Shown here: positions 2,338-34,271 of the stretch, piece after piece
Layout of the letters: every line of letters begins with the position of its first letter
Numbering within the stretch: position 1 is the stretch's first letter
Virus record (IMG/VR): IMGVR_UViG_3300049427_000023
Span: 1 to 34,781 of that record
Length of the DNA stretch: 34,781 nt
Reading direction: 5' to 3' (one strand)
Origin: a virus
Program-made: the position numbers and the translations under genes
The notes under the pieces: model-generated
Databases searched by the model: none
What the model saw: the letters and a program-made list of their open reading frames with translations, nothing else
Told to the model about the DNA's origin: nothing

Positions 2338-3069
2338 TTATTTGGATGCTCTCAGTGCCACGGCCAACGTTCGCCAGCCTTCTACTGTAAATTTAGGATC
2401 GTGAATAATACTGCCTAGATCCATATCCTTGAACTCTTTGCCGAACCATGCAGGAGCCGGTACAAGCTGTTTCAACTCCTCAAGTTGCTTTCCTTGCTCT
2501 TTGACTAATTTCGTCAATTCCTCAAATGCCTTTTTTTCTGCCGCTGTCATTTGTTGATCCTCCTCGTTTTTAGGCTGCATCTTTGCAGCTACCGTTGCTT
2601 TAAACTTTATCCATCCCGCCCAGCTGCCGTCACTATACATTAATCGCGGACAAATCTTGCCGCTCCAATCATAATGACGCCGTAGACGATCTGTTCCCCA
2701 TCCTCGATCCTTAAGCATTTTAGCTACAAGCTCCACAGCATTATCCAGCGTCTTTTCATAGTCACCGCTCTCACATATTTCGATACCAATAGACGTTCGA
2801 TTACCGCTCTTGCTTCCGTTTCCATCGCCAGAGTGCCAAGCATGCTCGTTCAATGGCAAACACTCGATAGCTCCTTGCTCGTCAACCACAATATGATAGG
2901 AAGCCGTGCGTTTATTGGATGTGTTTGTAAGCCAATCTCGTTCGTTCCTCGCTGTACTGGATGGATTCCCAGTGTTGTGTATGGTTAAAGTTGTTGCTGC
3001 CATGGTAAGAGCTGGACGGCGATTAAATTCCGTCCCTTTTGGTATATGGTCAATCGTATATTTAATCAC
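2338..3069 (-). CDS. Endolysin: N-acetylmuramoyl-L-alanine amidase (Amidase_2)
   Basis: The lysis enzyme, predicted to cut the bond between N-acetylmuramate and L-alanine. Residues 1 to about 160 form an Amidase_2/PGRP-type zinc domain. The ligands appear to be H31 (in T-I-H-N-T-G), H132 (R-H-Y-D-W-S-G) and C140 (K-I-C-P-R), with conserved E97 in G-I-E-I-C-E and the H-A-W-H-S-G-D-G segment at 76-83. A charged coiled-coil-like linker (about 174-202) leads to a 40-residue tail that could bind the wall; I do not recognise it. There is no signal peptide, fitting holin-dependent release. It starts at GTG after AAGGAGTGG and overlaps the holin gene by 8 bp. Confidence 0.93.
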   Translation of the reverse strand: MIKYTIDHIPKGTEFNRRPALTMAATTLTIHNTGNPSSTARNERDWLTNTSNKRTASYHIVVDEQGAIECLPLNEHAWHSGDGNGSKSGNRTSIGIEICESGDYEKTLDNAVELVAKMLKDRGWGTDRLRRHYDWSGKICPRLMYSDGSWAGWIKFKATVAAKMQPKNEEDQQMTAAEKKAFEELTKLVKEQGKQLEELKQLVPAPAWFGKEFKDMDLGSIIHDPKFTVEGWRTLAVALRASK

Positions 3070-3550
3070 GTTTGTCCACTCCTTCTTTTTCAGCTCCGCG
3101 TTTACTAGCTCGATCCACCTTTGCTTTCAGTTCGCTTTCGATGTGTGACATGACCGACTGCGGTATCCATTTCCCCCAGCCAGCACGGTAAGCGTTAGCC
3201 GTTAATGATTGCCATGTGTGATAAACAATACCAAGTGTTATTCCATAGAAAAGCAAGCCAGGAACACCGAGCATCGAGTCAAATAGATTCGCGAGCGCTG
3301 GGAGAGAAAGGAGGAACAGCGTTCGCGGCAAACCCTGTCTTAAGCCGTACTCACTGGAAAACGTCATATCTTTCTTTGCTGCCGAAATGCCTGTTATCCA
3401 ATCTAATGCAATTACAATAATTAAAAGCATTATCGGAATTAACCGACCATCTCCGTATATTAATGAAACCCAAGGCGCTATTACCGCGCCGATCCCTGCA
3501 GCTATTGCTCTACCTTCTGTCACGTCTACTGCAAACCATTTTTTATACAT
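3062..3550 (-). CDS. Phage holin (Bacteriophage_holin_4 / toxin-secretion type)
   Basis: A 162-residue membrane protein just upstream of, and overlapping, the amidase gene: the classic lysis cassette. Hydrophobic segments at about 13-30, 38-52, 76-90 and 95-112, the motif A-L-D-W-I-T-G-I-S-A-A-K-K followed by S-S-E-Y-G-L-R-Q-G-L, and a charged C-terminal tail match the holin family seen in many Bacillota phages and in Clostridium toxin loci. It should form lethal membrane holes that release the endolysin at the programmed time. Confidence 0.9.
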   Translation of the reverse strand: MYKKWFAVDVTEGRAIAAGIGAVIAPWVSLIYGDGRLIPIMLLIIVIALDWITGISAAKKDMTFSSEYGLRQGLPRTLFLLSLPALANLFDSMLGVPGLLFYGITLGIVYHTWQSLTANAYRAGWGKWIPQSVMSHIESELKAKVDRASKRGAEKEGVDKRD

Positions 3551-3593
3551 AACCGTTCATTCCCCTCAAATTTCATTTCTATAAAATTCAAAA

Positions 3594-25532: not shown

Positions 25533-26078
25533 TCACCCAATTTTGAATGACTTCATGGCATGATCCATTGTGTCCTGCAACTCTCCGATATACCGCAAAG
25601 TTACCTTCTCTGTCGAGTGATTAAAGTGGTTCATTAGCATAACAACATCCTTAAATTGTTTGTAATGCCAATAGCCAAATGTTTTTCTTAACGTATGGCA
25701 ACCAATATCATAAAGTCTAAATTCTCTAGCTATTTCCGACATGATTTTATAAGCCATACTCCTACCTATGGGACGATTGAAACCTTCGCGACTCTTGAAC
25801 AAATACTCTTGTGGTTCACGATCTTTGATATATTCAACGAGTGCTCGTTTTAACTCCACTGTGATCTTTGTTGATTTTTCCTTGTTCGTCTTCTTCTCAC
25901 GAATGGTTATATGTGTTTTCCCTACAACATCCCGAACCCTTAACCGAAGAAGATCGCTAATACGTAGTCCTGTATTTATACCGGTCAGGAACAACATATA
26001 ATTACGAGGATGCGGTCTGAGGTAATCTAAGATGTCAGCTATTAACTCAGGATCGCGAATCGGTAAAACTGTATTCAC
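25533..26078 (-). CDS. Small tyrosine recombinase
   Basis: The 181-residue product is a catalytic domain only, without the N-terminal core-binding domains of a full integrase. Conserved residues: R39 (N-T-G-L-R-I-S-D), a lysine near 62, H128 and R131 (C-H-T-L-R-K-T-F-G), H154 (F-N-H-S-T) and Y163 (L-R-Y-I-G). All key residues are present, so it may be active. Similar short recombinases often lie before terminase genes in Bacillus-group phages; their role is unclear. GTG start, AAAGGAG upstream. Confidence 0.88.
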   Translation of the reverse strand: MNTVLPIRDPELIADILDYLRPHPRNYMLFLTGINTGLRISDLLRLRVRDVVGKTHITIREKKTNKEKSTKITVELKRALVEYIKDREPQEYLFKSREGFNRPIGRSMAYKIMSEIAREFRLYDIGCHTLRKTFGYWHYKQFKDVVMLMNHFNHSTEKVTLRYIGELQDTMDHAMKSFKIG

Positions 26079-26813: not shown

Positions 26814-26842
26814 TTGAATAATGGAATATTTTATAGTATAAT
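26814..26842 (+). promoter_or_regulatory. Strong rightward promoter of RNA unit A
   Basis: TTGAAT (26814-26819), a 17-bp spacer and TATAAT (26837-26842): a near-consensus sigma-A promoter pointing right, in a region where the known genes run left. No rightward ORF with an RBS follows. Confidence 0.75.
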
Positions 26843-26848
26843 ATCTGT

Positions 26849-26906
26849 AAATCCGAAAGCATCGGTCAAAGAGTCGCGGGAAAGAATCCATGCGGCTCTT
26901 TTTTCT
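26849..26906 (+). ncRNA. Candidate small RNA A
   Basis: Starting about 7 bp after the TATAAT, a transcript of about 58 nt would hold a small CCGA/TCGG hairpin (from about 26853). Then AAGAGTCGC (26870 on) pairs with GCGGCTCTT, followed by TTTTTT, a full intrinsic terminator. The unit has no room for a protein. It is antisense to any leftward transcript reading through from ArpU. First of four similar rightward units in this prophage. Confidence 0.6.
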
Positions 26907-26922
26907 GTCTTCATGATTAAAA

Positions 26923-27136
26923 TTGTCTCTTGTTCAGCTGGTCGGACGGTTCCGGCAATCTGAACAAGGGACAAGTCAACCTTGTTAAGGGCATTCAACC
27001 CCACCTCATCATCACACGCCTGGCGACTAGCGCCTAAGGTTGAATAACCCACCGCATGACCGAGTCCTACAATTGATAAAGGTACAGTAGGATCACCCGA
27101 GCTTTCGCTCTTCTTATGATCTAACTGTACCTTTAT
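26923..27136. other. Highly structured non-coding segment: three consecutive nested inverted repeats
   Basis: Three elements follow one another. (1) TTGTCTCTTGTTCAG (26923-26937) with CTGAACAAGGGACAA (26960-26974), 15 pairs with one G-U, around an inner CGGA/TCCG hairpin. (2) TTCAACC (26994-27000) with GGTTGAA (27038-27044), around GGCG/CGCC. (3) ATAAAGGTACAGT (27076-27088) with ACTGTACCTTTAT (27124-27136), a perfect 13-bp stem around GAGC/GCTC. AACAAGG (26963-26969) can instead pair with CCTTGTT (26980-26986), so element 1 has an alternative fold. A leftward reading frame crosses the segment (to 27166) but has no RBS. Could be an RNA of either strand or protein-binding DNA. Confidence 0.55.
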
Positions 27137-27184
27137 GATGCAGACACTTATTGGACGGCGTTTCACTCAAAATGGACATTTATG

Positions 27185-27559
27185 CTAGAGATACAAAAGC
27201 GAGTTTGCAACCGATTCTATGCCCTCTATTATTTTTCGATCAATCGTTTTGTCACAATAATCCCAACCCGAAAACCTAAGTATCGTCGCTGCGCGTGAGT
27301 TTCCTTTAATATAACGATATTCTATTAACGCCCTTACATTAGAATCGACGATTTGGTTCACCGCTCGCTCTATGTTACGAGAACACTGAATTGCCTGCTT
27401 TTGCGTTTTAATCTGTTTTTCCGACTCCGGAGGATTTTTTGCAAAGCCCTCTATCATCACTACCATTTTTTTATATCTGGACAGCAATGATTTTGCTATC
27501 GCAATTTCTTCCTCTGTAGCATCAGCAAGAAAATACATCTGTTCATCGTATGTCGCCAT
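27185..27559 (-). CDS. ArpU-family late transcription regulator
   Basis: The 124-residue product has a helical N-terminus and a C-terminal sigma-region-4-like HTH. The marks are V-R-A-L-I-E-Y-R-Y-I-K-G-N-S-R-A-A, I-L-R-F-S-G-W-D-Y-C-D-K-T-I-D-R-K-I-I-E-G-I. This is the signature of ArpU/RinA-type phage activators, which switch on late genes. Its place between early genes and the packaging module agrees. ATG 27559 has GAGGGG 10 bp upstream; in-frame ATGs further up lie too near their own SD. Confidence 0.85.
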   Translation of the reverse strand: MATYDEQMYFLADATEEEIAIAKSLLSRYKKMVVMIEGFAKNPPESEKQIKTQKQAIQCSRNIERAVNQIVDSNVRALIEYRYIKGNSRAATILRFSGWDYCDKTIDRKIIEGIESVANSLLYL

Positions 27560-27583
27560 TGCCAACATTCCCCTCATCCTCTC

Positions 27584-27657
27584 TGTTATAATAGAAGATG
27601 AGATTTGTCTAAATCCTTCGGAGTCCGTTCCCCAACAGCTACCGAAGGATTTTTTTT
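27584..27657 (+). ncRNA. Candidate small RNA B with extended -10 promoter
   Basis: TGTTATAAT (27584-27592) is an extended -10 element. About 7 bp later a transcript of roughly 59 nt would begin and end in a perfect 11-bp stem, AAATCCTTCGG (27611-27621) with CCGAAGGATTT (27642-27652), followed by a T8 run. No ORF fits. It lies between ArpU and the upstream gene, antisense to the leftward leader of ArpU. Confidence 0.6.
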
Positions 27658-27928
27658 ATTTTGCTGCAGCTTGCTTTGATACCCAATTGAATCCAACCCC
27701 TCCTCTAGTCAGCGGGCTCTCTATGAGATAGGAATTTCCCTTCTTTACGTACTCTCCTGGAACAACTAACAACAATCCATACATTGTATCTACGACTGCA
27801 ACTTCCGCAATCGGTGATTTTGGACAAACCACAAGTTTGATACGATCTATCCTTTTTCCTGATTTTATAATTGGTTTAAGTGCTTCGTTAATCAAAAGCA
27901 TTGCTTTTGGTCCTATATGAGCTGACAC
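27656..27928 (-). CDS. Small phage protein of unknown function
   Basis: A 90-residue protein, GTG start with AGAGGTG 7 bp upstream. It opens with S-A-H-I-G-P-K-A-M-L-L-I-N-E-A-L and continues with beta-type segments (R-I-K-L-V-V-C-P-K, V-A-V-V-D-T-M-Y-G-L-L-L-V-V-P-G). No family recognised. Its stop codon lies inside the T-run of unit B on the other strand. Confidence 0.6.
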   Translation of the reverse strand: MSAHIGPKAMLLINEALKPIIKSGKRIDRIKLVVCPKSPIAEVAVVDTMYGLLLVVPGEYVKKGNSYLIESPLTRGGVGFNWVSKQAAAK

Positions 27929-27957
27929 CTATAATCACCTCTTATGTTCTTCAATAT

Positions 27958-28704
27958 TCATTGAATTACTTCGCCATATCTAGAAACAATCTCTTTAATC
28001 ATATGGCCGTTTCCTTTTTGAATCTGCCCGTCCTCTATTCTGCGAACCGTGTAACGCCAGCTAGAAGCAATTAATTCTTTATTGACAATTACACCTACAA
28101 CAAGCTTTCGACCATCACGTATATATCCACCTAAAAGGGTATTTTCTCTCAGTTTCGGCATGCGAACAGTATCACCGATTGCTGCAGCATTACGCATATA
28201 AGTAATCATTGCACTTCGCTTAATAACTTCTTTCTTAAGCAAACTCTTTTGTTTAACTGGCATTTTAGATGAACAGTAAGCAAACTCCGACAATCGGACT
28301 GATCGCAATGCTACTTCAAATTTCCCACCATTATCGGCGCATTCGTAAGCCAGTTGTTCAACAAGTGCCAATCGATTTTTCCATATAAATTTTCTTGTGA
28401 TTTGAAGCTCATCACTTTCAAGATCATCATTCGCTATTGTTGGAGGCACAACATCAATGCCGAAATGATTCAAAACAATAGAAAATGCCTCACGATCGGT
28501 CAACATTGCCGCTTTTTCTTTTGCAACGGCAGCCATTTCCGACATACATGTTTGAACCGTCTTACCAGGGTCTAGGATCTTCTCAGCATCTTCCGGATTG
28601 TTTTCCAAACGAGTTAAAAGAAACTGGCCGATATAATTCACAAAATCATTGTCCTTGTTGCCATCAATCTCAGCCTGCAGCTTAGCTCTTGCCTGCACTA
28701 ACAT
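27958..28704 (-). CDS. Protein with AcrIIA9/PcfK-like N-terminal domain
   Basis: The 248-residue product starts at ATG 28704 after AAGGAGGATCTAACT. Residues 1 to about 90 match the AcrIIA9/PcfK-like pattern: helical A-K-L-Q-A-E-I, Y-I-G-Q-F-L-L-T-R-L-E-N-N-P, A-E-K-I-L-D-P-G-K-T-V, then L-T-D-R-E-A-F-S-I-V-L-N-H-F-G-I. AcrIIA9 relatives inhibit type II-A Cas9; PcfK proteins occur on conjugative elements with unknown role, so the match alone does not prove anti-CRISPR activity. The C-terminal 150 residues are an extra region, basic and helical then beta-rich, which I cannot place. Confidence 0.65.
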   Translation of the reverse strand: MLVQARAKLQAEIDGNKDNDFVNYIGQFLLTRLENNPEDAEKILDPGKTVQTCMSEMAAVAKEKAAMLTDREAFSIVLNHFGIDVVPPTIANDDLESDELQITRKFIWKNRLALVEQLAYECADNGGKFEVALRSVRLSEFAYCSSKMPVKQKSLLKKEVIKRSAMITYMRNAAAIGDTVRMPKLRENTLLGGYIRDGRKLVVGVIVNKELIASSWRYTVRRIEDGQIQKGNGHMIKEIVSRYGEVIQ

Positions 28705-28727
28705 AGTTAGATCCTCCTTAAAATGAA

Positions 28728-29027
28728 CTAATCCATACATTCAAATCCCTTAACTGACCGAACATCTTCCAATGCAATTCGCTTTGATCTATTTGATTTC
28801 TCTCCCCAACGAAAGCCGATTAGCTGCCTTAGTCGGTATTCGCTAAACGTGTTAATCAGAAGCAAAGCCACTTCTTTCGTCTGTCGCTTAAAATAAGCTG
28901 CTATCTGATGCACCGTATAGCCTTCTTCCCATAACCGCAAAAACTCATCAATCTCTGACTGGTCCCATATATGATTGAGTTCTTCACAAACAATAACTCT
29001 ATTCTTTCTTGCTGCCTCAGCTTGCAT
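28728..29027 (-). CDS. Small HTH-like protein of the replication region
   Basis: A 99-residue protein directly after the replisome organizer. The central W-D-Q-S-E-I-D-E-F-L-R-L-W-E-E-G-Y-T-V-H-Q-I-A-A-Y-F-K-R-Q-T-K-pattern (about 21-52) looks like a homeodomain-type or resolvase-type helix-turn-helix. Ends are charged. AAGGAG lies 12 bp before the ATG. Function unknown; no helicase loader (DnaC) gene is visible, so it could be an accessory replication factor. Confidence 0.6.
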   Translation of the reverse strand: MQAEAARKNRVIVCEELNHIWDQSEIDEFLRLWEEGYTVHQIAAYFKRQTKEVALLLINTFSEYRLRQLIGFRWGEKSNRSKRIALEDVRSVKGFECMD

Positions 29028-29036
29028 TTACTGCAT

Positions 29037-30002
29037 TCACTCCTTCCTCATTTTGCGAATAAATGCTTGATATTCCTCTTCCGTAGGCGGAGGAGCACCA
29101 TCGCTTTTGTGAACCAGATCGCAAAGCTCTCGAATCGCTTCATCGGTCATTTCATCCTTTGGCTGATTAACAGATACAATGTCGATTTGCGGCTTTCCTG
29201 ATCTGCTTTGTGTTTTAACAGACTTCTTAACGGTGTTCCAAGGCTCATCCACGCCGTCAGCTTTATAACGTTCAAGAATTCCCTTAACATAGGTCAAGTT
29301 CCGCTTACCAGCGATAACAGCAGCTTTCATCGCTTCACAAGTCCACCGCTCTCCGTAATCGTCTATGAACATGTTTAACTTATCCGCGATGACCATACTG
29401 ATTGTCCCGAATCCCTCTGCTTCAAAAAGACGAAAAGGATTATAAACAGGATCAATACCACCACTAGCAGGATTTTCTGTTACCGGTTTCTTTTTGGTAC
29501 TGGTTGTGTTCTGTTGGGTCTGGTTAGGTAAGGTCTGGTTAGGTAAGGTAAGGTCAGGTACTGTAGCCCCGTGACCGCTCTTACCGTCACCAAGAGTCAC
29601 GTTTGTGTCACGCGTGACATCTGTGTGACTCTCTTTACCTTTCTTTGCATTCTCGCGTGACTTCCGTTTCCTTTCCTTATTCTTTTCACGGTTGTCCACT
29701 AGCCGTCCAGCGTAATCAAACCAGTCATGTATCGTGACGTCCCCTTCTACTCTGTCGATAAAACCTGAATCAACAAGGGCTTGTAGGAGTTCTTTTGCTG
29801 TCTCAGTAGGCCAGTCTATCGCCTCCGCTATGTCCTCGGGATCATAATCGGAAATGTTGCCATCTTGTGCGTAATCAACAGCCCACCACCACAACATATG
29901 TAAATGCCCAACAACTGCAGGAACGTTAACGCCTAATTTCCGAGATAAACGTTTAGTTTTCGGATGCCTTGCTAGTTCTTGATGACTCTCTATCCATGCC
30001 AA
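29037..30002 (-). CDS. Phage replication initiator (replisome organizer / DnaD-like)
   Basis: The 321-residue product has an N-terminal winged helix (W-I-E-S-H-Q-E-L-A-R-H-P-K-T, then M-L-W-W-W-A-V-D-Y, then G-F-I-D-R) matching Phage_rep_org_N. A low-complexity linker (about 110-185) with L-P-N-Q-T-L-P-N-Q-T follows. Then comes a DnaD/DnaB_2-like C-terminus (Y-N-P-F-R-L-F-E-A-E-G-F-G, W-T-C-E-A-M-K-A-A-V, L-T-Y-V-K-G-I-L-E-R-Y). It should bind the origin, melt DNA and recruit host helicase. The linker DNA carries the repeat cluster described separately. The gene overlaps the upstream one by 13 bp. Confidence 0.88.
   Translation of the reverse strand: MAWIESHQELARHPKTKRLSRKLGVNVPAVVGHLHMLWWWAVDYAQDGNISDYDPEDIAEAIDWPTETAKELLQALVDSGFIDRVEGDVTIHDWFDYAGRLVDNREKNKERKRKSRENAKKGKESHTDVTRDTNVTLGDGKSGHGATVPDLTLPNQTLPNQTQQNTTSTKKKPVTENPASGGIDPVYNPFRLFEAEGFGTISMVIADKLNMFIDDYGERWTCEAMKAAVIAGKRNLTYVKGILERYKADGVDEPWNTVKKSVKTQSRSGKPQIDIVSVNQPKDEMTDEAIRELCDLVHKSDGAPPPTEEEYQAFIRKMRKE
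29521..29661. other. Candidate phage replication origin inside the initiator gene
   Basis: The word GTGAC or its complement GTCAC occurs seven times in 91 bp, at 29571, 29586, 29596, 29607, 29614, 29625 and 29657. It includes the palindrome GTCACGCGTGAC (29607-29618). Beside it is a tandem GGTTAGGTAAGGT repeat (29522-29556). The cluster lies in the low-complexity linker of the initiator, where lambda-type phages keep their origin. Confidence 0.6.
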
Positions 30003-30196
30003 AAACGTCCCCTCCTTTCTTGGCCGACTTGATTGCGCGTTAAGACCTCTGCTACATCTGACGCGAGCATTGGAATCGATTTACCGTCTGAATCACGTTT
30101 AAGGCTCATAAAGGTTCGTGCTCGACCCCATAATTCGATTACTTCGCCCGTATCACCTGATTCCACACGAACCCTATCACCTTTTAACGCGATCAT
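29990..30196 (-). CDS. Small SH3/KOW-like phage protein
   Basis: The 68-residue product contains K-G-D-R-V-R-V-E-S-G-D-T-G-E-V-I-E-L-W and then A-S-D-V-A-E-V-L, the outline of a small SH3-like barrel as in KOW-type modules. GGAGGG lies 6 bp before ATG. It overlaps the replication gene by 13 bp. Function unknown. Confidence 0.6.
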   Translation of the reverse strand: MIALKGDRVRVESGDTGEVIELWGRARTFMSLKRDSDGKSIPMLASDVAEVLTRNQVGQERRGRFWHG

Positions 30197-30253
30197 TATC
30201 AGCCCTCCAATATGATGCCTGCTTGCTCTGCAATGTCCTACTCCTGCAATCTC

Positions 30254-30520
30254 TCACAACATCTCTTTTGGATGTGATACAATAGACAAAACGAGATTCC
30301 TTAGTCGGGTTCTCAACGGTGTCCGCCCTGCCAGGCGGGCATTTTTTATTTCATGCTCAAATTCATAAGCCTCAAATCGAATCAACATTTGCAAATACGC
30401 TTCCATATCCGGCATTTTGCTTTGATCCACCTTATCTGGATTACTCCGAATAAACCTCAAATTGTGTTCAGCGGCTTGTCCAGCTGCGCGAGCTTCTGCT
30501 GCCAAATGATCTCTCGACAT
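30254..30520 (-). CDS. Small helical phage protein; C-terminus shared with RNA unit C
   Basis: ATG 30520 is preceded by AGGAGGGAATTATAC; the longer frame to 30595 has no RBS. The 88-residue product is helical (D-H-L-A-A-E-A-R-A-A-G-Q-A-A, M-E-A-Y-L-Q-M-L-I-R-F-E-A-Y-E) with an Arg/Leu-rich end. The last 30 codons coincide with the rightward promoter-terminator unit C on the other strand. The gene could be shorter in reality, or dual use of this DNA is real. Confidence 0.55.
   Translation of the reverse strand: MSRDHLAAEARAAGQAAEHNLRFIRSNPDKVDQSKMPDMEAYLQMLIRFEAYEFEHEIKNARLAGRTPLRTRLRNLVLSIVSHPKEML
30275..30347 (+). ncRNA. Candidate small RNA C with extended -10 promoter
   Basis: TGATACAAT (30275-30283) is an extended -10 followed by AGACAAAACGAGATT, close to the start of unit B (AGAAGATGAGATT). 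After about 58 nt there is GTCCGCC (30321-30327) paired with GGCGGGC (30334-30340), then ATTTTTTATTT, a strong terminator. Antisense to the end of the 88-residue gene. Confidence 0.6.
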
Positions 30521-30536
30521 GTATAATTCCCTCCTA

Positions 30537-30788
30537 TTAAGCTGCACCAGTGATTTGCAAAACGGTTTGAAGGATCGACGCAGGATCGACTCCATAAAGA
30601 AAAGCTATCCCTGCCTCGACTTGATTAGTCAGCTTTGTCCAATCCCGAAATGTATGTACATCCAATGTCTTTTGGTCTTTCTCGAATTTACTGATACATG
30701 ATTGTGTCCGATTTAGCAGGCGAGCAAGTTTAACCTGGCTTATCCCAGCTTGCTCGCGGCAAATTTTCATAAAAGTACCGGCCGTCAT
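30537..30788 (-). CDS. Xre-family HTH protein
   Basis: The 83-residue product has a full C1-type helix-turn-helix: C-R-E-Q-A-G-I-S-Q-V-K-L-A-R-L-L-N-R-T, then S-C-I-S-K-F-E-K-D, then a helix R-D-W-T-K-L. It ends in a short hydrophobic tail. Third gene of the leftward early transcript after the Cro-like and excisionase-like genes. A regulator of early genes, target unknown. Confidence 0.85.
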   Translation of the reverse strand: MTAGTFMKICREQAGISQVKLARLLNRTQSCISKFEKDQKTLDVHTFRDWTKLTNQVEAGIAFLYGVDPASILQTVLQITGAA

Positions 30789-30853
30789 TGATAAGTCCCC
30801 CTATTATTCCGATTTGGAATATATTCCGATTTAGAATCTCATGGGGAATCTGT

Positions 30854-30953
30854 TGTTATAAAATAAAGTCATACCGTTCCGCTGCATGAAATACTTGCCT
30901 TGTTCAACATTCCCCGACTCGTCCGGCATCAGTGGCCCTGATGTCGGTTTTTT
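30854..30953 (+). ncRNA. Candidate small RNA D with extended -10 promoter
   Basis: In the 184-bp gap between two leftward genes, TGTTATAAA (30854-30862) is an extended -10 element. About 85 nt after the predicted start comes CCGGCATCAG (30923-30932) paired with CTGATGTCGG (30938-30947) and TTTTTTA. No ORF with an RBS lies between. This is the only one of the four units wholly between genes. Confidence 0.6.
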
Positions 30954-33086: not shown

Positions 33087-34271
33087 ATGTCCAGTATAAA
33101 GAAACGCGGACAAAACTCTTGGTTACTGGTTGTTGAACTAGGCTATGATGCCAAGGGAAAAAGAATCCAACGTACTAAAACAGTCAAAATAACCGATCCC
33201 GCGCTCATTCGAGCTCCCAAGAGACTACAAGAGCATTTGAACACCGAATTAACTAAGTTCAAAATTATGGTTGAAACTGGTGTATATCTAAATCCCGGCA
33301 AAATGACCTTTAATGACTTTCTTAAAGATTGGGAACGCAACTTTGTACAAATTGAACTTGAGGAAAAAACAATTGTTAGCTATCTATTTCATTCTAAAAA
33401 GAGAATTGCCCCCTACTTCGGTCACATGTTTATGGAGCAAATTAAATCAATGCATATTCTTAATTTTATGGATACACTCAGGCAGCCTAATGCCCGTTTA
33501 GATGGTTCGGGTCCACTTAAGTCTGCAAGCCTGGTTTATAACTACCGTGTTCTAAAAAGCATTTTCACAAAAGCAGTCGAATGGAAAGTTATCCTAGACA
33601 ATCCTATGACCGGCATCAAAAAACCGAAAGAAGACGACATAAGGGAAATGGAGGTTTACGATGAGAAGGAAATTAAAAAGCTTTTTGAGGCGCTCTCTCT
33701 TGAGTCTCTATCGTTAAGAACTGCAATTACCTTAGCGATTACCACAGGCATGCGTCGAGGTGAAATAGCAGGCTTAGAATGGACTAAAATTAACCTTGAG
33801 CTGGGTCATATCTATATTACTCAAACCATACCTCAAATGAAAAATGGCTCACCGATTTTGAAATCCCCCAAGAATGGTAAGCCGCGTAAAATTGCATTAT
33901 CAGAATCATTACTTATTGAATTGCGTCTGTTTTATGCTGAGCGCGAATCAGAACGTAGCGAACTACAGGACCAATGGGCAGACGGCAAACATTCATTTGT
34001 ATTTTGCCATCCAGACGGTAAGCCGTATGATCCTGGTTGGTTTACTAAACAATGGATTGATTTCCATCGCCGCCACCTACTAAAACCGATTCGCCTGCAC
34101 GATCTAAGGCATACATCGGTTTCTTGGATGATTTATAAGAAAGTTCACTCCGAAGCGATTGCAAAGCGAGTCGGGCATTCTAATATTAAAATGCTCGAGA
34201 TTTATGGTCATATATTTGAAACAGTTGATCAAGCTGCTGCAGCTGTTTTTGATAATATCCAAAATGTATAA
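33087..34271 (+). CDS. int: Phage integrase (tyrosine recombinase)
   Basis: The 394-residue enzyme has a full three-part build. An N-terminal arm-binding part (1-60: I-K-K-R-G-Q-N-S-W and K-R-I-Q-R-T-K-T-V) is followed by a SAM-like core-binding domain (about 73-175). The catalytic domain carries R223 (T-G-M-R-R-G-E), K259 (L-K-S-P-K-N-G-K-P-R), H338 and R341 (L-H-D-L-R-H-T), H364 (V-G-H-S-N-I) and Y373 (I-Y-G-H-I-F). GGAGGTGATTTC precedes ATG. Last gene of the rightward lysogeny operon. Confidence 0.95.
   Translation: MSSIKKRGQNSWLLVVELGYDAKGKRIQRTKTVKITDPALIRAPKRLQEHLNTELTKFKIMVETGVYLNPGKMTFNDFLKDWERNFVQIELEEKTIVSYLFHSKKRIAPYFGHMFMEQIKSMHILNFMDTLRQPNARLDGSGPLKSASLVYNYRVLKSIFTKAVEWKVILDNPMTGIKKPKEDDIREMEVYDEKEIKKLFEALSLESLSLRTAITLAITTGMRRGEIAGLEWTKINLELGHIYITQTIPQMKNGSPILKSPKNGKPRKIALSESLLIELRLFYAERESERSELQDQWADGKHSFVFCHPDGKPYDPGWFTKQWIDFHRRHLLKPIRLHDLRHTSVSWMIYKKVHSEAIAKRVGHSNIKMLEIYGHIFETVDQAAAAVFDNIQNV

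Follow-up and report, generated by a model that had tools for sequence, protein, structure and literature searches.

What is a temperate phage doing with a set of short, promoter-driven and promptly terminated units on the strand opposite its early operon? The question is raised by the IMG/VR virus record IMGVR_UViG_3300049427_000023, which was studied in its entirety (34,781 bases, hereafter the window). It represents a temperate phage whose late genes, terminase, arpU-like gene, replication gene and early genes are read leftward, and whose nearest relatives are Paenibacillaceae prophages. An initial annotation of this DNA had described four such rightward units, named here A to D, and all four -10 boxes and terminators were present at the places given:

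26814 to 26905, plus strand: unit A, with -35 box TTGAAT (26814-26819), -10 box TATAAT (26837-26842), terminator stem (26868-26901) and a run of six T from 26899
27584 to 27657, plus strand: unit B, with extended -10 box TGTTATAAT (27584-27592), predicted RNA from about 27599, terminator stem with a 20-nucleotide (nt) loop (27611-27652) and eight T (27650-27657)
30275 to 30347, plus strand: unit C, with -10 box TGATACAAT (30275-30283), a 5' hairpin, terminator stem (30319-30342) and six T from 30342
30854 to 30953, plus strand: unit D, with extended -10 box TGTTATAAA (30854-30862), predicted RNA from about 30869, terminator stem (30923-30947) and six T (30948-30953)

Our preferred reading, to which we give a probability of about 0.6, is that A to D are small non-coding RNA genes whose products would restrain lytic messages by base pairing at the early-to-late switch. 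The host sigma-A RNA polymerase would read the units from their (extended) -10 promoters and intrinsic terminators would end them; lying antisense to the early operon at what appear to be its control points, they would give RNAs able to pair with lytic messages and to restrain them, and the ACCGUUCCCC motif of B and D could pair with the Shine-Dalgarno (SD) region of arpU. Comparison of related prophages shows nucleotide-level conservation of promoter, stem, terminator and motif, at a fixed place and in a fixed orientation, for B and C and, in fewer cases, for D. Expression of the RNAs, the late switch as their target and repression as the effect are inferred, with repression more likely than activation, though less firmly so for B.

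The frequency of this layout was counted in relatives, with a unit defined as a strong promoter score plus a terminator within 90 nt. In 520 kb of related loci there were 40 units antisense and 10 sense to the early operon, against 1-3 in order-1 Markov shuffles, and the early side of 61 arpU-centred loci carried 39 antisense units and 4 sense ones. The layout is thus far above chance and strand-biased. Diverged prophages, moreover, have B, C and D at constant positions, with their -10, stem and terminator kept despite sequence divergence. The units do run opposite the leftward early operon, as initially described, but they are not alone on the plus strand, since the lysogeny genes (repressor, ImmA-like gene and integrase) are read rightward from 31613 onward. 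A further antisense class, made of a -10, then roughly NNCCGTAANNTTAATTTTTC and then a terminator, was observed at L238 (Paenibacillus phage Harrison, 9864-9925), L006 (7636), L005 (11528), L009 (10209), L010 (8791) and L037 (13600), all in window orientation. Members of this class come from an annotated phage of P. larvae and from a metagenome-assembled Christensenellaceae genome, so the layout is not restricted to Paenibacillaceae.

The four units have a common layout and belong to separate classes. From -10 to T-run they measure 56 (A), 57 (B), 58 (C) and 85 nt (D), which agrees with the spacing first given for C and D and corrects the 58 and 59 nt given for A and B, and their terminators are the four strongest of the plus strand in the early region (dG -14.8 to -17.7). 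Unit A is flanked by the EAR element described below and by the leftward late operon; B is in the leader upstream of the putative late-regulator gene, C in the gene after a cro-like repressor, just before the replication module, and D beside an XRE operator. B and C share the start AATAGA...GAGATT, as had been noticed, although this start alone does not prove one family: a covariance model of C scored B only weakly (21.7 bits, E = 0.075) and matched no other unit, whereas B and D share a motif only, and descent of A to D from one homologous family was rejected. The idea of a prophage set of small RNAs, perhaps antisense regulators, gained comparative evidence in the recurrence of B, C and D with their elements kept, but not as a single family.

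For C, a covariance model (R1) was built from eight members. Of 396 Paenibacillaceae genomes, 73 contained matches to it, 81 in all, most of them full length and with E below 1e-6, the E-values being rough. Across the class Bacilli, 10 of 399 genomes had a match, nine of them already in the family search and one a weak extra (E = 3e-4). Where arpU was on the same contig, C lay upstream of it and on the opposite strand in all 46 cases, at a distance of 2-18 kb. The cells of the C terminator helix are paired in 99.7%, with both sides changed in five of the nine pairs, and the covariation score reached 0.436, in comparison with 0.231 (standard deviation 0.015) for shuffled and at most 0.127 for slid alignments. 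The -10 and the terminator are the most constrained parts, and beyond them the 5' hairpin is also kept. Judged by these sequences, two of the four units belong to putative small-RNA families kept in many Paenibacillus prophages, and C is one member of such a family; no nucleotide similarity of C to annotated phages was seen. The genome of Bacillus sp. FJAT-28004 holds several window-related prophage copies (L016, L017, L019, L022), with three copies of C.

The units had been described as non-coding, which fails for C: a conserved open reading frame (ORF), read leftward, contains it antisense within its 3' end:

30254 to 30520, minus strand: ORF of 88 amino acids (PHROG 38589, function unknown), its 3' third antisense to C

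Coding could therefore have explained the conservation of C. Among codon pairs for the same amino acid, the fraction with the same codon was 0.74 inside C and 0.45 outside (p = 2.7e-6), with leucine always CTC (30/30), lysine always AAG (26/26) and isoleucine always ATT (29/29) over C. The frozen codons include those of the -10, the stem and the T-run, whereas the rest of the ORF is not frozen. At the codon that makes half of the -10, leucine, valine and isoleucine are exchanged with the plus-strand TANAAT retained, and in locus L204 the stem is altered on both sides at the cost of two arginines (R to Q and R to W). Since codon freezing is confined to C, coding does not account for its conservation. 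Moreover, the ORFs over C in L214, L215, L216, L217 and L220 have unrelated N-terminal halves and a common arginine-rich C-terminal tail opposite C, as though any gene located there had its tail dictated by the RNA unit. A plus-strand micro-ORF over C was dropped as a candidate, its frame being without a transcribed start codon.

The features in and around unit B, including its antisense partner, are the following:

27185 to 27559, minus strand: arpU, putative late transcription regulator, RinA/ArpU-like, antisense partner of B
27566 to 27573, minus strand: ribosome-binding site (RBS) of arpU, GGGGAAUG, complementary to CGUUCCCC of B and CAUUCCCC of D
27572 to 27603, minus strand: predicted hairpin of the arpU mRNA leader, which occupies part of the arpU SD and has the -10 of B in its loop
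27627 to 27636, plus strand: apical loop motif GUUCCCCAAC of B, a 3-bp GUU/AAC mini-stem with CCCC

B is located in the arpU leader in the window and in many diverged prophages, with the extended -10 and the T-run retained. Its stem sequences vary freely between phages, yet the arms covary, as own arms pair better than swapped ones (0 of 5000 swaps). The GUUCCCCAAC loop is nearly invariant, being identical in most of the approximately 19 B homologs, and the variants AUU/AAU and GCU/AGC preserve the pairing of the mini-stem (L085 has GUUACCCAAC). Ranked by fit to the B loop, the arpU RBS comes at places 1-5 among 23-52 RBSs in 11 of 19 phages, a preference partly due to the C- or G-rich character of both partners. 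About ten other loci have a B unit at the same place with a CCGGCCAAGG-like loop instead of GUUCCCCAAC; such a loop lies upstream of arpU in L107, L117, L118, L128, L130, L131, L134 and L142, and the terminator loops of C often read CUGGCCGG, complementary to it. Sequence alignment misaligned the stems of B, and no covariance model was built for it; the start of B had no exact match in IMG/VR.

The inverted repeat around the -10 of B is a second hairpin, that of the leader, so that B starts beside the hairpin loop and is complementary to its upstream arm. The arms of this hairpin covary as well (6 of 5000 swaps), and its wobbles, in plus-strand letters, are 36 A-C against 11 G-T, which suggests selection in the leftward RNA; the terminator stem of B gave 27 G-T against 16 A-C, which clearly favours neither strand. 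Both are symmetric counts, as a count based on plus-strand folding is biased. Stem stability was not used as proof of strand, the minus strand being favoured for both B hairpins. The complementarity of B to the arpU leader beside the SD hairpin is complete, and the predicted 5' end of B covers the hairpin arm opposite the SD. Together they would form a compact riboregulator, with an antisense promoter within the loop of an SD hairpin.

For D, homologs were found in four other prophages (L086, L096, L026/L232 and L233), beside an XRE repressor gene where examined:

30873 to 30915, plus strand: split motif ACCGTTCC...CAACATTCCCC of D, with 30905-30915 complementary to the RBS of the putative late regulator
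30804 to 30838, no strand assigned: two ATTCCGATTTRGAAT palindromes, probable operators, adjoining the XRE gene and overlapping the -35 region of D

Three of the homologs have the -10 and TACCGUUCCCCA, and three carry near the 5' end AUACCGUUCCCCA, the same motif as the loop of B, so that B and D have ACCGUUCCCC in common. In L096 and in the window the motif is split by an insertion. In the window, CAACAUUCCCC of D is perfectly complementary over 11 nt to the RBS of arpU, which is also the best match of D among 43-51 RBSs. Palindromes of the type TCC-AATT-GGA likewise precede D in L086, L096 and L233. Matches to TATAA...TACCGTTCCCCA in six related genomes all represent a single conserved stretch of chromosome that has no terminator; two further matches, in L225 and L234, lack one too, and none was taken as a D unit. 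For A, a homolog was found in P. sinopodophylli (L018), with AAATCCGAAAGCATCGGTC kept exactly, the 5' 19 nt identical and the flanks diverged.

The octamer GGGGAAYG occurs four times in the window: in the arpU RBS, in the RBS of the holin gene (3558-3565), and as the complements of B and D. The RBS of this gene (3062-3565, minus strand), GGGGAAUGAACGGU, is complementary to the CAUUCCCC and ACCGUU segments of D and is not conserved in relatives. A common second target with a GGGGAAYG RBS was not found across the phages, the holin RBS being specific to the window.

The name of late regulator was given to arpU because it is the last early gene before the late operon, matches PHROG 21810 (unknown function, 2e-29) and gives a weak match to PHROG 248, 'transcriptional activator' (0.002), and its homologs give weak matches to RinA and sigma-factor profiles. 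Downstream of it stands the following element:

26988 to 27098, minus strand: EAR (Rfam epsC), a processive antitermination element, 88.8 bits, between arpU and the late operon

EAR directly follows arpU in the window and in 10 of the 16 relatives scanned. Directly after an arpU-like gene and at the head of the late operon, it was seen in L004, L005, L008, L087, L090, L092, L093, L095, L096, L098, L102, L106 and L110. This element is otherwise tied to exopolysaccharide operons, and we found no reports of EAR in phages in the open-access literature, which is weak evidence. In the window a leftward terminator (26801-26780) follows it, and a second, short tyrosine recombinase (181 amino acids; 25533-26078, minus strand) lies at the start of the late operon, the integrase being at 33087-34271. 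A more elaborate scheme, which we hold only tentatively, is a coordinated RNA circuit for the early-to-late switch of Gram-positive temperate phages. In it, the structured leader of the late regulator might be the common target of several small RNAs from the antisense strand, constitutive or linked to the repressor, of which two have the anti-SD motif ACCGUUCCCC; the late-regulator transcript would then meet EAR before the late operon.

Several observations weigh against the small-RNA proposal. The identity of arpU as a regulator, resting on weak profile matches and position, is putative. The loop of B is unchanged in L090, L095 and L100, though the arpU RBS there differs and does not match it. 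In three relatives D no longer prefers the arpU RBS, which takes ranks 4, 5 and 12 there, and 14-23% of trials with shuffled D sequences yield an equal duplex energy. Unit A is known from two genomes only. Finally, B reaches the leader only up to the SD-pairing arm, so its binding could free the SD and activate. In this line, B might raise translation of the late regulator by pairing with the 5' arm of the leader hairpin, an activator role that we consider rather unlikely: the hairpin around the -10 is selected on the minus strand and the predicted 5' end of B covers the arm opposite the SD, but its CCCC loop can cover the SD too, an activator made from a sigma-A promoter in a lysogen would favour leaky lysis, and the idea is limited to B. 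We regard as similarly improbable that the units are transcriptional insulators, whose antisense firing and termination would interfere with leaky leftward transcription in the lysogen and leave the short RNA inert. Their fixed antisense orientation, the overlap of the B and C promoters with the SD of the next leftward gene and the strong constraint on the -10 and terminator of C are as expected for insulators, yet the loop of B, the 5' motif of D and the 5' hairpin of C, also conserved, are not needed for interference.

It seems less probable again that the RNAs chiefly target messages or small RNAs of the host by way of the C-rich UUCCCC motif, in the manner of the C-rich small RNAs of Gram-positive bacteria. 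The motif is common to B and D and the loop stays constant even where the arpU RBS changes; however, the exact complement GTTGGGGAACGG occurs at about chance level in host genomes outside the units, with no systematic search for host targets made. It is quite improbable that the plus strand has no function at all, with conservation due to the leftward gene at C and to leader structure at B, and the likeness to promoters and terminators a by-product. C does lie inside an ORF, the inverted repeat next to B is selected on the minus strand, and the stem of B is no less stable there; against this stand the freezing of codons over C only, including those of -10, stem and T-run, the compensated stem of L204 with its amino-acid changes, the T-runs of B kept on covarying stems and the strand bias of whole units. 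Least credible, and very unlikely, are put/nut-like antitermination signals or decoys, as the initial annotation had also suggested. The units do lie near EAR and the late operon, but each ends in a strong terminator of its own, and none matches EAR or another Rfam family, EAR being a separate element on the opposite strand.

Nearly all antisense small RNAs known in phages come, to our knowledge, from those that infect Gram-negative hosts. In a 2025 review of phage small RNAs the words Bacillus, Paenibacillus and Gram-positive are absent. The original remark that no described family has this layout agrees with one review of phage small RNAs and with Rfam, where none of A to D has a match and the sub-threshold ones are unrelated eukaryotic and leader families. 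If the RNAs are made, the units would constitute a conserved, testable set in Gram-positive temperate phages, and antisense RNA at replication and late-regulator genes would suggest a recurring solution in unrelated phages.

Some known systems offer partial likenesses. The C-rich small RNAs of Gram-positive bacteria, such as RoxS/RsaE and IsrR, pair with G-rich SD sequences; B and D have a C-rich motif too, but are phage-borne and present the motif, ACCGUUCCCCAACG, on a mini-hairpin, and no Rfam match assigns the units to RsaE/RoxS. The sar RNA of P22, a phage RNA of 68-69 nt, blocks the translation start of a lytic regulator (PMC12197685). The complement of D likewise covers the arpU RBS in the window, although D has no sequence relation to sar and its target is a predicted one. 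The placement here recalls phage lambda, in which OOP lies opposite the stretch that precedes the replication genes and aQ opposite the late activator (PMC12197685). OOP (promoter pO) is a 77-nt RNA with a promoter to itself, running antisense to the early operon at a site with the cro/cII region on one side and the replication genes on the other, and C has the same place and orientation and, as a sequence layout, the promoter, short length, intrinsic terminator and antisense position near a replication gene of the OOP type. No sequence relation is detectable, however; C comes from phages of Paenibacillaceae, shares its site with the 3' end of an ORF unrelated to those of lambda, and is one of a set that includes B and D. 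OOP is antisense to cII and works via RNase III cleavage of the cII mRNA; no CII homolog was seen among the window genes examined. The aQ RNA, whose promoter paQ is activated by CII, is antisense to the late activator gene, as B would be to the leader of the putative, weakly identified late regulator. The length of aQ is about 220 nt (PMC12197685), whereas B has about 60 nt, a plain extended -10 of the sigma-A type in place of a CII-activated promoter and its own terminator, and leaves the coding region uncovered. On the best reading, the circuit would resemble lambda OOP and aQ in its working, by analogy and not by homology.

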